A DNA stretch of 64,000 bases from Rhodobacter sp. NTK016B (lineage in GTDB: Bacteria > Pseudomonadota > Alphaproteobacteria > Rhodobacterales > Rhodobacteraceae): positions 62,001 to 126,000 of the forward strand of contig NZ_JAFKOK010000012.1 of assembly GCF_017303295.1 (NCBI RefSeq), given 5' to 3'. Both the position numbers and the translations under genes were made by a program. Numbering within the stretch: position 1 is the stretch's first letter; every line of letters starts with the position of its first letter. Positions 51,557 through 59,346 of the stretch are shown here, piece after piece. Under the pieces are notes generated by a model. It saw nothing but the letters and a program-made list of their open reading frames with translations, did not search any database and was not told where the DNA came from.

Positions 51557-52243
51557 ATGGCCAAACTGAACAAGATTCTGCTTGTCGACGATGACGAAGA
51601 CCTGCGCGAGGCGCTTGCCGAACAACTGGTCGATACCGAGGAATTCGATACCTTCGAAGCCGGTGACGGCGCTTCGGGGATGGAGCGCGTGCGCGACGAG
51701 CAGTTCGATCTGGTGATCCTTGATGTAGGGCTGCCCGACACCGATGGCCGCGAGCTGTGCAAGCGGATGCGCAAGGCTGGGGTGAAATGCCCGGTAATCA
51801 TGCTCACGGGGCAGGATTCGGATGCCGACATGATCCTTGGGCTCGATTCGGGCGCGAATGATTATGTCACCAAGCCGTTCAAGTTTCCCGTGCTTCTGGC
51901 CCGGATCCGCGCGCAGCTGCGCCAGCATGAGCAATCCGAGAATGCGGTGTTCCAGCTGGGTGACTACCAGTTCAAACCCGCGCAGAAGATGCTGGTCGAT
52001 GAAAAGGACCGCAAGATCCGCCTGACCGAGAAGGAAACCAATATCCTCAAGTTCCTGTACCGCGCGCCCGACGGGCTTGCCCCGCGCGAGGTGCTGCTGC
52101 ACGAGGTCTGGGGATACAATGCGGGCGTTACGACCCACACGCTTGAGACGCATATCTACCGGCTGCGTCAAAAGATTGAATCCGACCCGTCGAATGCGCG
52201 GCTTCTGGTGACCGAGCCGGGCGGATATCGGCTGGTTCCCTGA
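51557..52243 (+). CDS. cenR: OmpR-type response regulator, CenR-like
   Basis: 228 aa. The receiver domain has acidic pocket DDDED (11-15), phospho-acceptor Asp56 and Lys in YVTKPF; the OmpR winged helix spans about 125-225. LVDDDEDLREALAEQL and SDADMILGLDSGANDYVTKPF resemble CenR, the alphaproteobacterial regulator of cell-envelope genes. No histidine kinase gene is adjacent, so it is an orphan here. The start at 51557 avoids an upstream in-frame extension. Confidence 0.8.
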   Translation: MAKLNKILLVDDDEDLREALAEQLVDTEEFDTFEAGDGASGMERVRDEQFDLVILDVGLPDTDGRELCKRMRKAGVKCPVIMLTGQDSDADMILGLDSGANDYVTKPFKFPVLLARIRAQLRQHEQSENAVFQLGDYQFKPAQKMLVDEKDRKIRLTEKETNILKFLYRAPDGLAPREVLLHEVWGYNAGVTTHTLETHIYRLRQKIESDPSNARLLVTEPGGYRLVP

Positions 52244-52291: not shown

Positions 52292-52323
52292 TCATTGTGG
52301 CTTCATGGGTTTTCTCATCCCCT

Positions 52324-52390
52324 GCGTGTCGGGGTCATGACACGCTCCTCCCTGTTGGACTGGTCCGGGCTTCGGCCCGGACCTTTTTTT
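52324..52390 (+). ncRNA. Candidate small RNA 1 with anti-SD linker
   Basis: Stem GCGTGTC/GACACGC (52324-52345, 8-nt loop), then the single-stranded stretch TCCTCCCTGTTGGACT (52346-52361), then the terminator GGTCCGGGC-TTCG-GCCCGGACC plus seven T (52362-52390). CCTCC is complementary to ribosome binding sites. The 5' end is unknown. A second locus with the same linker lies 190 bp on. Confidence 0.6.
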
Positions 52391-52426
52391 CTTGGCGCGG
52401 GCACGCGTCCGCACGGGGCGACGGCG

Positions 52427-52442
52427 GGCCGGTTGACCGGCC
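52427..52442 (+). other. Hairpin between the two sRNA candidates
   Basis: GGCCGG-TTGA-CCGGCC, a perfect 6-bp stem with a four-base loop, followed by TTCCCC. Role unclear; it lies just upstream of the promoter-like TTGACC at 52469. Confidence 0.35.
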
Positions 52443-52468
52443 TTCCCCGGAAAAATGACCTCAAAGGG

Positions 52469-52587
52469 TTGACCCGGCAATTTCCGTGACTTGATCTATC
52501 TTAATGTGGCGCGTTCGCCGCAGAGGTAACGAGTCAATTCTCCCTGTTGGACTCGGGCCCCGCCGCAGCTGCGCGGGGCCTTTTTTT
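52469..52587 (+). ncRNA. Candidate small RNA 2 with promoter and anti-SD linker
   Basis: A -35-like TTGACC (52469-52474) and -10-like TGATCT (52492-52497), 17 nt apart, would start RNA near 52504. The RNA would hold a 6-bp stem GTGGCG-CGTT-CGCCGC (52506-52521), a linker ending TCTCCCTGTTGGACT (52539-52553), and the terminator GGCCCCGC...GCGGGGCC (52556-52580) plus seven T. Length about 80 nt. The 14 bases CTCCCTGTTGGACT are identical to candidate 1. Confidence 0.6.
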
Positions 52588-52729
52588 CACCCCGTTCGTG
52601 GCCTGTCGCCCGGCGGGCGAACCCGTAGGATTCGGGTTTTGCCCCGGCGGGCGAGCGTGTAGACCCACAGGGTGCAAAGAAACGGGCGCGAGGCGCCCGC
52701 GCGACAGTTCGGGCGCGAAAGGAAATCCC
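52588..52729 (+). other. Leader region of exoIII gene
   Basis: Contains a hairpin AACCCG/CGGGTT (about 52620-52638), a repeated CCCGGCGGGCGA, and a strong hairpin CGGGCGC-GAG-GCGCCCG (52683-52699) about 30 nt before the exoIII ATG. No open frame that looks coding. Confidence 0.4.
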
Positions 52730-53518
52730 ATGCCGTTCACCCTTGCCACCTGGAACATCAATTCCGTCCGCCTGCGCAGCCCGCTGGTGCAGAAATTCCT
52801 GACCGAGGAAGCGCCCGACGTGCTGTGCCTGCAGGAATGCAAAAGCCCGGTCGACAAGATCCCGCTCGCCGATTTCGAGGCTCTGGGCTACGGCCACATG
52901 GTTGCGCGTGGGCAAAAAGGGTACAACGGCGTGGCCATCCTGTCGCGTCTGCCGCTCGAAGATGCGGGGCATATCGACTGGTGCCAGAAGGGCGATGCGC
53001 GCCATGTCGCGGCCCGGCTGGAAAACGGCGTGACGATCCACAATTGTTATGTTCCCGCCGGTGGCGACGTTCCCGACCGCAGCGTCAACGACAAGTTCGG
53101 TCACAAGCTGGATTTCGTGGCCGAGATGCGCGACGTGTTCCGTGATTCGCTGCCCGAGAAGTCGATCCTCGTGGGGGATCTGAACATCGCCCCGCGCGAG
53201 GATGACGTGTGGAGCCACAAGCAGCTTCTGAAGGTGGTCAGCCACACGCCCGTCGAGATCGAAGCGTTTGAAGAGGCCCGCGCGGCGGGCAAATGGGTCG
53301 ATATCACCCGGCAGGACATCCCCGAGGGGCAGGTCTATTCGTGGTGGTCCTATCGCTCGCCCGACTGGGACGCGGCGGATAAGGGGCGCAGGCTGGATCA
53401 TATCTGGGCCAGCGGCGATATCGGCGCGGCGGGCCATTCCTCGCGCATTCTGCGCCATGTGCGGGGCTGGGAAAAACCGTCGGACCACGCGCCGGTGCTG
53501 GCCACGTTCGACATCTGA
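52730..53518 (+). CDS. xth: Exodeoxyribonuclease III / AP endonuclease
   Basis: 262 aa of the EEP fold. Motifs: TWNINSVRLR, LCLQECK (catalytic Glu), YVPAGGD, VGDLNIAPREDDVW, RLDHIWAS, and the terminal SDHAPV (catalytic His). Repairs abasic sites and removes 3' blocks. The start at 52730 follows AAAGGA. Confidence 0.94.
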   Translation: MPFTLATWNINSVRLRSPLVQKFLTEEAPDVLCLQECKSPVDKIPLADFEALGYGHMVARGQKGYNGVAILSRLPLEDAGHIDWCQKGDARHVAARLENGVTIHNCYVPAGGDVPDRSVNDKFGHKLDFVAEMRDVFRDSLPEKSILVGDLNIAPREDDVWSHKQLLKVVSHTPVEIEAFEEARAAGKWVDITRQDIPEGQVYSWWSYRSPDWDAADKGRRLDHIWASGDIGAAGHSSRILRHVRGWEKPSDHAPVLATFDI

Positions 53519-57663: not shown

Positions 57664-57855
57664 CTCGTGCTGACCCTATCCGGGGCTCGCCGTGGTTGGC
57701 AGCCGTCACGAATCCGTGTATGCCGCAGGGCAGCGAACACGGATCCGGGTGCAAGCCCCGGATGGCTATTCCGGCCGCCGATCCGCCGGACAACCTGACC
57801 GACTAAGACCAGGAAAACGGCGGGGACCGCCCCGCCGGGACGGGAAACGACTGAC
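57664..57855 (+). ncRNA. Structured 5' leader of sulP: candidate riboswitch or cis-RNA
   Basis: Nested pairing: outer stem ATCCGGGGCT (57678-57687) with AGCCCCGGAT (57754-57763), inner stem ATCCGTGT (57712-57719) with ACACGGAT (57737-57744), a hairpin TCCGGC/GCCGGA (57770-57790), and a GC hairpin CGGCGGGG-ACCG-CCCCGCCG (57818-57837) 18 nt before the sulP ATG. All these helices are perfect. A cis-RNA class named sul1 has been described upstream of sulfate-permease genes in alphaproteobacteria; I cannot verify a match. Confidence 0.6.
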
Positions 57856-59346
57856 ATGATGACCCTCGACCAGTATCGCAGGGAGTGGTTCGGCAATATG
57901 CGTGCCGATCTTCTCTCGGGCCTTGTGGTGGCGCTTGCGCTGATCCCCGAAGCCATCGCCTTTTCACTCATCGCCGGTGTCGACCCCAAGGTCGGCCTTT
58001 ACGCCAGCTTCTCGATTGCCGTTCTGGTGGCGATCACCGGCGGGCGGCCCGGCATGATCTCGGCCGCGACCGCCGCGACCGCCGTTCTGATGGTCACGCT
58101 GGTGCGCGATCACGGGCTGGAATACCTGCTGGCCGCGACCGTGCTGGCGGGGGTGATCCAGATCGCCATGGGCCTGTTGAAACTGGGCTTCGTGATGCGC
58201 TGGGTGTCGAAATCGGTGATGACCGGCTTCGTCAACGCGCTGGCGATCCTGATTTTCATGGCGCAATTGCCCGAGCTCGACCCGCGCGACGTCACATGGG
58301 TGACCTATGTGCTGGTCGCGGCCTCGCTGGCGATCATCTATCTGTTCCCGCGCATCACCAAGGCGATCCCCTCGCCGCTGGTCACCATCATCGTGCTGAC
58401 CGCGCTGACGATGGCATTCGGCTGGGACGTGCGGACCGTGGCCGATATGGGCGAGCTGCCCGATGCGCTGCCCATCTTCCTGCTGCCCGATGTGCCGCTC
58501 AATCTCGAGACGCTGATGATCATCCTGCCCTATTCGCTGGCTGTCGCCGTGGTGGGGATTCTGGAAAGCCTGATGACGCAGCAGCTGGTCGATGACCTGA
58601 CCGACACCAAGACCGACCGCAATCAGGAATGCATCGGTCAGGGCGTCGCGAATTTCTGCACCGGCTTCATCGGCGGCATGGCGGGCTGCGCGATGATCGG
58701 CCAGTCGATGATCAACGTGAAATCCGGTGGGCGCGGGCGGCTGTCGTGTTTCACGGCGGGCGTCGTGCTGCTGATCCTTGTCGTGTTCCTTGGCGAATGG
58801 GTGGGGCAGATCCCGATGCCAGCCTTGGTGGCGATCATGATCATGGTGTCGATCGGCACCTTTTCGTGGTCCTCGATCGGGACGCTCAGAACGCATCCGC
58901 GCTCGTCGTCGGTGGTGATGCTGGCGACGGTCGTTGCCGTGGTCTGGACCCATAACCTTGCCATTGGCGTGCTGGTGGGTGTGCTTCTGTCGGGCATCTT
59001 CTTTGCCGCGAAGATCGCGCAGCTGTTCCGCGTCACCTCGACCATCTCGCCCGACGGGCGCGAGCGGACCTATCGGGTCGAGGGCCAGATGTTCTATGGT
59101 TCGGTCGAAGATTTCATGGCCGCTTTCGACTTCAAGGAAGCGCTGGAGCGTGTCGTGATCGACGTGTCGGCGGCGCATATCTGGGATATTTCCAGCGTTC
59201 AGGCGCTCGACATGGCGGTGCTCAAATTCCGCCGTGACGGGGCCGAGGTCGAGATCGTTGGCATGAACGAAGCGTCCGAGACTATGGTCGACAAACTGGC
59301 GATTCATGACAAACCCGGCGCGATGGACACTCTGAGCGCGCATTGA
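57856..59346 (+). CDS. SulP family anion permease with STAS domain
   Basis: 496 aa. About 10-12 membrane helices with the SulP signature ([23 protein letters not shown]), then a cytosolic STAS domain (about 400-485). Candidate substrates are bicarbonate (BicA-like), sulfate or other anions. It is co-directional with a universal stress protein gene 14 bp downstream, the common SulP-UspA pairing. The long structured leader suggests RNA-level control. Confidence 0.9.

Follow-up and report, generated by a model that had tools for sequence, protein, structure and literature searches.

Between the gene of an OmpR-type response regulator and that of an exonuclease III-like protein in Rhodobacter sp. 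NTK016B, direct reading of the sequence finds the same 14 bases, CTCCCTGTTGGACT, twice on the forward strand within 264 bp. What are the two units that carry this 14-mer, what drives them, and what might the repeated sequence, which we refer to as the seed, pair with? An earlier note on this DNA had described two tandem candidate small RNA (sRNA) genes, each with a linker that contains 14 identical bases and a terminator ending in seven T, and direct reading confirms that layout, the terminators being GC-rich. The neighbors that it named also stand as far as domains go. All positions refer to the 64,000-nucleotide stretch of DNA that we analyzed (the window), and the features of the locus are as follows.

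51557-52243 (+): gene of an OmpR-type response regulator, with unit 1 in its 3' UTR (Pfam PF00072, 99.4 bits; PF00486, 69.6 bits)
52317-52390 (+): unit 1, the SorX sRNA, ending at its T-tract (RF02784, 85.6 bits; fold z -4.3)
52348-52361 (+): first seed copy, CTCCCTGTTGGACT (read directly; 13-mer in 368 of 394 family genomes)
52362-52390 (+): terminator of unit 1, stem 52362-52383, seven T at 52384-52390 (sequence, fold)
52491-52504 (+): candidate Fnr/Crp-family box TTGATCTATCTTAA (8 of 10 consensus letters, center 42 nt before the second seed)
52505-52522 (+): hairpin TGTGGCG-CGTT-CGCCGCA (TGTGGCGCGTTCGCCGCA), the 5' stem of unit 2 in the earlier note (fold; position relative to the box)
52540-52587 (+): unit 2, a tandem SorX/SorY paralogue (SorY and SorX scores below threshold; fold z -4.2)
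52540-52553 (+): second seed copy, CTCCCTGTTGGACT (read directly)
52556-52587 (+): terminator of unit 2, stem about 52556-52580, seven T at 52581-52587 (sequence, fold)
52730-53518 (+): exonuclease III-like gene, downstream (PF03372, Exo_endo_phos, 96.6 bits)

SorX and a tandem relative that carries the same seed

An Rfam scan identifies unit 1 as the already described sRNA SorX (RF02784), which the earlier note had missed. The match at 52317-52388 covers the model from end to end (1-73 of 73) and scores 85.6 bits, above the gathering threshold of 46.6, and the RNA begins at 52317 in the 3' UTR of the regulator gene, whose stop lies at 52243. SorX of Rhodobacter sphaeroides, the RNA RSs2461 (PMC5036791), likewise belongs to the 3' UTR of a gene for an OmpR-type regulator (RSP_0847), with published RNase E processing and Hfq binding; the 5' end of pre-SorX has been placed at 2,598,182 on chromosome 1 of strain 2.4.1 (PMC6238624). 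Unit 1 resembles this RNA in the full-length model, the host 3' UTR, the seed, and the terminator. The Rfam match rules out unit 1 as a new RNA family. The CcsR-type RNAs with CCUCCUCCC, as the earlier note describes them, also have a CU-rich anti-Shine-Dalgarno-like motif, but the motif is a different one and the gene upstream here encodes a response regulator instead of a DUF1127 protein; the contrast drawn in that note is thus right for the host gene, and the units are not of the CcsR type.

Unit 2 is a tandem relative of SorX and SorY that is not a member of either family by the curated thresholds. With the thresholds opened, it scores 32.1 of the 111 bits set for SorY (RF02651, RSs1543), with which ACCUCCCUGUUGGACUU is held in common, and 26.5 of the 46.6 bits set for SorX. 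It differs from SorX in that it lacks the SorX hairpin, lies farther from the regulator gene, and is preceded by a candidate Fnr box. Nothing speaks in favor of unit 2 as PcrZ, for which the scan returned no row, although Rfam may contain no PcrZ model. A literature search, beyond whose reach lay most subscription papers including the original SorX/SorY papers, found no paper on a tandem copy or a sponge of SorX or SorY, and unit 2 is apparently an undescribed tandem copy.

Both units fold better than shuffled sequences, with z scores of -4.3 for 52317-52391, -2.7 for 52505-52589, and -4.2 for 52530-52589. The 5' end of unit 2 probably lies near the seed, but the RNA could also be longer and begin at about 52505. 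The small 5' stem that the earlier note gave to this unit does exist as the hairpin at 52505-52522, but it sits between the candidate Fnr box and the seed and may belong to the promoter rather than to the RNA; judging from the position of the box, it would be a promoter part if transcription starts near the seed. The same note took the linker to be single stranded, which does not hold for unit 2, where the minimum-energy fold pairs CGAGUC..GGACUCG and leaves UCUCCCU as the loop.

The chance origin of two identical 14-mers within 264 bp is very unlikely by our own, uncomputed estimate. The genome of 4.84 Mb contains only three copies of the 13-mer CTCCCTGTTGGAC, one in each unit and one on another contig (L003). 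Among all families this third copy scores best with SorY, at 55.7 bits against the threshold of 111. Its segment 1463-1535 (-) also aligns with the rhizobial suhB/MmgR family (RF00519), which lacks the GUU(G) part of the seed, through CCUCCCU..GACUU and the terminator, with a score of 33.5 bits, below the threshold of 41. A distant relationship between Sor RNAs and MmgR is therefore possible.

Within the family, the exact 13-mer is present in 368 of 394 genomes, and the same 13-mer read backwards in 11 by our count. In the copies that we read, both the stems and the terminator stems vary around a constant seed, which bears out the earlier view of two sRNA genes whose linker, rather than their differing stems, is the conserved part and is suited to pairing. 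The outcome that the note had named as refuting, a linker that is not conserved in relatives whose terminators are, is therefore not observed, with the proviso that the copies compared were found through the seed. At 80 named exonuclease III loci, taken with up to 3 kb of flank and in some cases less, one exact copy is found in 43, two in 2, three in 1, and none in 34.

Two small groups of exact matches stand apart. Near position 1501 of L234, L223, L225, and L226, the 13-mer has by eye no evident terminator and is perhaps coding; these are probably chance matches, so per-genome copy numbers are slightly inflated. Near position 1501 of L136, L186, and L232, the seed follows a TTGACTA-type, sigma70-like promoter with no clear SorX/SorY hairpin, perhaps representing yet another class of seed RNA.

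A conserved complement of the seed upstream of ialB

The earlier note had proposed that the CUCC(C) core of the linker could pair with ribosome binding sites. Our sample contains two genomes of the genus, that of the window and G222, and in both we searched for complements of the seed with at most one mismatch to GTCCAACAGGGAG. The search returned 8 and 9 matches in all, of which the seeds account for 3 and 4, and the remaining 5 + 5 near-complete complements compare with 3 + 4 for the sequence read backwards. Because the search is about as productive backwards, long complements are not enriched in general, and long pairing with ribosome binding sites is unsupported. The sequence GGCCAACAGGGAG occurs once in each of the two genomes, in differing contexts.

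One near-complement, GTCCGACAGGGAG, lies in the same gene context in both genomes, and it belongs to an sRNA-like gene rather than to the start of an mRNA. In the window genome this stand-alone gene, which we call the anti-seed gene, is located outside the window on contig 9 (L301, 1484-1572), where an MFS gene and an IalB gene flank it. No Rfam family matches it at the gathering threshold, and with thresholds opened its best score is 18.7 bits against a family threshold of 50. By blastn, the anti-seed gene is found in 75 of 120 family genomes, with no blast match in plasmids.

We read 31 anti-seed sequences: the two just described, from the window genome and from G222, plus the 29 top-scoring blastn matches among the rest, a set that leans to well-conserved copies. 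Their common core is AAGTCGGCCAGTCCGACRGGGAG followed by an A-rich stretch, and the 13-mer occurs as GTCCGACAGGGAG in 18, GTCCGACGGGGAG in 10, and GTCCGGCAGGGAG in 3. In all 31, GTCCGRCRGGGAG pairs with the seed at 13 of 13 positions when G.U pairs are allowed, and the sequences differ here only by A-to-G changes that face a U; the complementarity is as extended as a sponge would need. In 30 of the 31 loci, the core is preceded by TTGAC and, 17 bp farther on, a -10-like element.

Cofolding predicts the expected helix between the anti-seed RNA and each of SorX, unit 2, and SorY. The cofolding gain with the anti-seed RNA is -16.1 kcal/mol for SorX, -16.2 for unit 2 taken from 52532, -16.8 for SorY, and -11.9 for the longer unit 2. 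The duplex of the first 40 nt of the anti-seed RNA with SorX, at -40.7 kcal/mol, is narrowly better than each of 1000 dinucleotide shuffles, the best of which reaches -40.1. In genomes where the anti-seed gene is known, we compared 34 seed copies with it: the longest unbroken pairing spans 13-14 nt for 25 of them and 15-20 nt for the other 9. Because the loop base beside the 13-mer varies, we do not take pairing of more than about 14 nt to be general. The anti-seed complement lies partly inside a 5-bp hairpin, and since the seed hardly varies, it shows no true covariation with the anti-seed.

By blast, the anti-seed gene is found in none of 11 genomes without an exact seed and in 75 of 109 with one, the 120 genomes being, from the listing, presumably G000-G119. 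A pattern search over 253 genomes gave 2 of 18 without the seed and 165 of 235 with it; relatedness is uncontrolled in both comparisons. The pattern admits only A or G at two variable places, and its backwards control occurs in 16 genomes by our count, so some of the 167 matches are due to chance. One of the two genomes that have the pattern without a seed, G102, has an atypical loop, and its match may be chance. Divergent genomes could also lose both signals.

On the strand of the anti-seed gene and 102-187 nt before it, 21 of the 31 loci have a further class of seed-like element (at most two mismatches) that is followed by terminator-like sequence (L313, L314, L316-L319, L321, L323-L327, L330-L334, L336-L338, and L340), and the downstream control gave 0 of 31. 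Thirteen of these 21 elements read CTCCCTGTCAGAC, whose pairing with the anti-seed has a single A.C mismatch. Four further loci found through the exact seed (L005, L033, L219, and L238) display this arrangement of two genes; no seed-like neighbor lies upstream of the anti-seed gene in the window genome or in G222. That the two RNAs, seed and anti-seed, are encoded side by side speaks for a functional link.

Could the element instead be part of an mRNA, the 5' leader or attenuator of ialB, and thus a regulated target of SorX, SorY, and unit 2? In the 8 loci inspected out of the 31, an IalB-like gene does follow it in the same orientation after 143-301 nt (IalB being confirmed by Pfam in the window genome and assigned by eye in the others). 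A terminator-like hairpin separates it from ialB, however, and the promoter before the core resembles that of a gene of its own, although a leader could have both. We consider the leader a reasonable alternative, if a somewhat doubtful one, and prefer a separate anti-seed RNA.

RNAs that act on other sRNAs have precedents in R. sphaeroides. In that species PcrX is a sponge of PcrZ. StsR of the same species pairs with another sRNA, UpsM (PMC8307010), as the anti-seed RNA is proposed to do. The anti-seed RNA differs from both in that it would face a whole family of RNAs that share a seed and often lies beside a seed-like element. It may be distinct from StsR itself, which is RpoH-dependent, whereas the promoter here is sigma70-like. 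The literature search found no partner RNA of SorX or SorY of the anti-seed kind.

Fnr-type boxes upstream of seed copies

Many seed copies are preceded by a strict box, defined as TTGAY-N4-RTCAA. This box followed by the seed is found in 11, 61, and 1 of the 394 genomes at gaps of 25-55, 56-86, and 87-117 nt, respectively, and the backwards control for these three bins gave no match among the matches listed. Upstream of the 50 exact seed units at the 80 named loci, 19 strict boxes occur within 300 nt, exclusively at 43-47 nt (6) or 64-81 nt (13), where about 0.03 would be expected per 14 positions over all 50 units. The far position corresponds to about -41.5 relative to the SorX 5' end, and the near position to about -41.5 relative to a start at the seed. 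By eye, several near-position copies have a -10-like element 28-30 nt past the center of the box. In our reading of the 11 genomes of the near bin, a SorX-like hairpin is kept directly after the box in 5 and not in 6.

To compare copies within one locus, we took from the loci retrieved the 23, including that of the window, in which a stretch of 2.5 kb carries two or three exact seeds in the same orientation; these multi-copy loci were partly picked for their several copies. A box with at most one mismatch stands before the last (downstream) copy in 9 of these loci and before an earlier copy in none. When two mismatches are allowed at 40-83 nt, the last copy has a box in 11 of 23, and the sole box at an earlier copy, in L100, has two mismatches. 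Where a locus has both kinds of copy, the Fnr box accompanies the downstream one, as it does in the window. In 12 of the 23 loci no copy has a box with at most two mismatches, and the Fnr arrangement is therefore not general.

At the locus itself, TTGATCTATCTTAA is the only box with at most two mismatches in the 300 nt upstream of the second seed, and unit 1 has none. Boxes of this quality, with the Y/R freedom, occur at 8.9e-4 per window position, giving about a 0.7% chance of one within a given 8 positions. The window's box matches TTGAT-N4-ATCAA at 8 of 10 letters, and with its two mismatches the window genome is absent from all three strict-box searches. The relative G222, whose SorX scores 91.8 bits, has a second seed copy 327 nt downstream of SorX, with a perfect 10-of-10 box, TTGATTTGGATCAA, at exactly the same distance of 42 nt. 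The distance recurs in L021. By eye, the -10 element is weak both at unit 2 and at the copy in G222. Each of the two genomes encodes a protein with the N-terminal cysteines CGSCPIRHRAVCARC and an ETVSR helix, which we call FnrL-like from these motifs rather than from a family model.

Published ChIP-seq of FnrL in R. sphaeroides reports binding within the putative RSs2461 promoter, the effect of which was not measurable by its authors (PMC4263372). This binding and the comparative positions together support an Fnr input at the SorX locus; the ChIP site speaks for the locus and not for unit 2. Control of unit 2 by Fnr in this genome is likely from the placement of its box, and is weakened by the imperfect box and the poor -10. 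Unit 2 would then be a low-oxygen, Fnr-switched RNA, as is the Fnr-activated FnrS of Escherichia coli; the authors of the ChIP-seq study report no sequence similarity between RSs2461 and FnrS (PMC4263372).

Two other readings of unit 2 bear on this assignment. Its driver might not be FnrL but another regulator of the Crp/Fnr family, of the nitric-oxide type, or a stress sigma factor. Boxes of the Fnr/Crp kind are common to several regulators, and Crp-family helix-turn-helix matches over the cut-off number 14, divided between the window genome (8) and G222 (6). In R. sphaeroides, moreover, SorX and SorY are described as RpoH-dependent stress RNAs (PMC5036791). FnrL binding at SorX was measured in that species, however, and an FnrL-like protein is present in both genomes, so we regard a different driver as unlikely.

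Alternatively, unit 2 could be a decaying SorX duplicate, promoterless and reached by read-through only, with a seed kept because the duplication is recent. The degenerate box and weak -10 (by eye) in the window, the family scores below threshold, and the 12 multi-copy loci devoid of such a box would all fit a decaying copy. G222, however, retains the seed and a terminator, and its perfect box is exactly as far from the seed, while the rest of the unit differs; some other genera have the same arrangement. A recent copy would also retain the SorX hairpin, which unit 2 has lost, and we find decay quite improbable. That both units are ordinary terminators similar by chance, a reading with nothing behind it beyond the general frequency of terminators, is refuted by the SorX match and by the presence of the 13-mer in 368 of 394 genomes.

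A possible seed/anti-seed circuit

The account that we favor takes unit 1 as SorX and unit 2 as its tandem paralogue, with the same seed, its own terminator, and probably its own promoter of the Fnr type. A Crp/Fnr-family regulator, most likely FnrL, would bind at about -41.5 and activate unit 2, the RNA of which would start almost at the seed. Both units would act in trans on common targets through CUCCCUGUUGGACU, unit 1 serving as the stress or 3'-UTR branch and unit 2 as the low-oxygen branch; the published target of SorX is a polyamine transporter mRNA, which SorX represses. The RNA of the sRNA-like gene upstream of ialB would carry the complement GUCCGACAGGGAG, through which it probably base-pairs with SorX, SorY, and unit 2 at their seed, and it would be either a sponge or a partner repressed by the seed RNAs. 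From the sequences we infer the transcripts, the Fnr control in this genome, and the pairing in cells with its direction, and we judge the explanation as a whole to be fairly probable.

A broader circuit across the Rhodobacteraceae is a more tentative proposal. In it, the seed would be supplied by SorX, SorY, the Fnr-driven tandem copy, and the copy on the ialB side, and one sigma70-driven sRNA with the complement would counteract them all. If this is true, oxidative-stress and low-oxygen inputs would meet on one set of targets with a tunable threshold, and the published, unexplained binding of FnrL at RSs2461 would gain a function. In the published work on which we draw, SorX has so far been studied as a stress RNA of one species. 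Were the seed the output of both stress and Fnr-type promoters and opposed by a conserved complement, the Sor RNAs would constitute a small, family-wide regulatory network.

Elsewhere in the window, a sul1 RNA motif (RF03058) is present at 57738-57795 (+) with a score of 76.3 bits, just upstream of a transporter-like open reading frame (57856-59346) that is presumably SulP-like.
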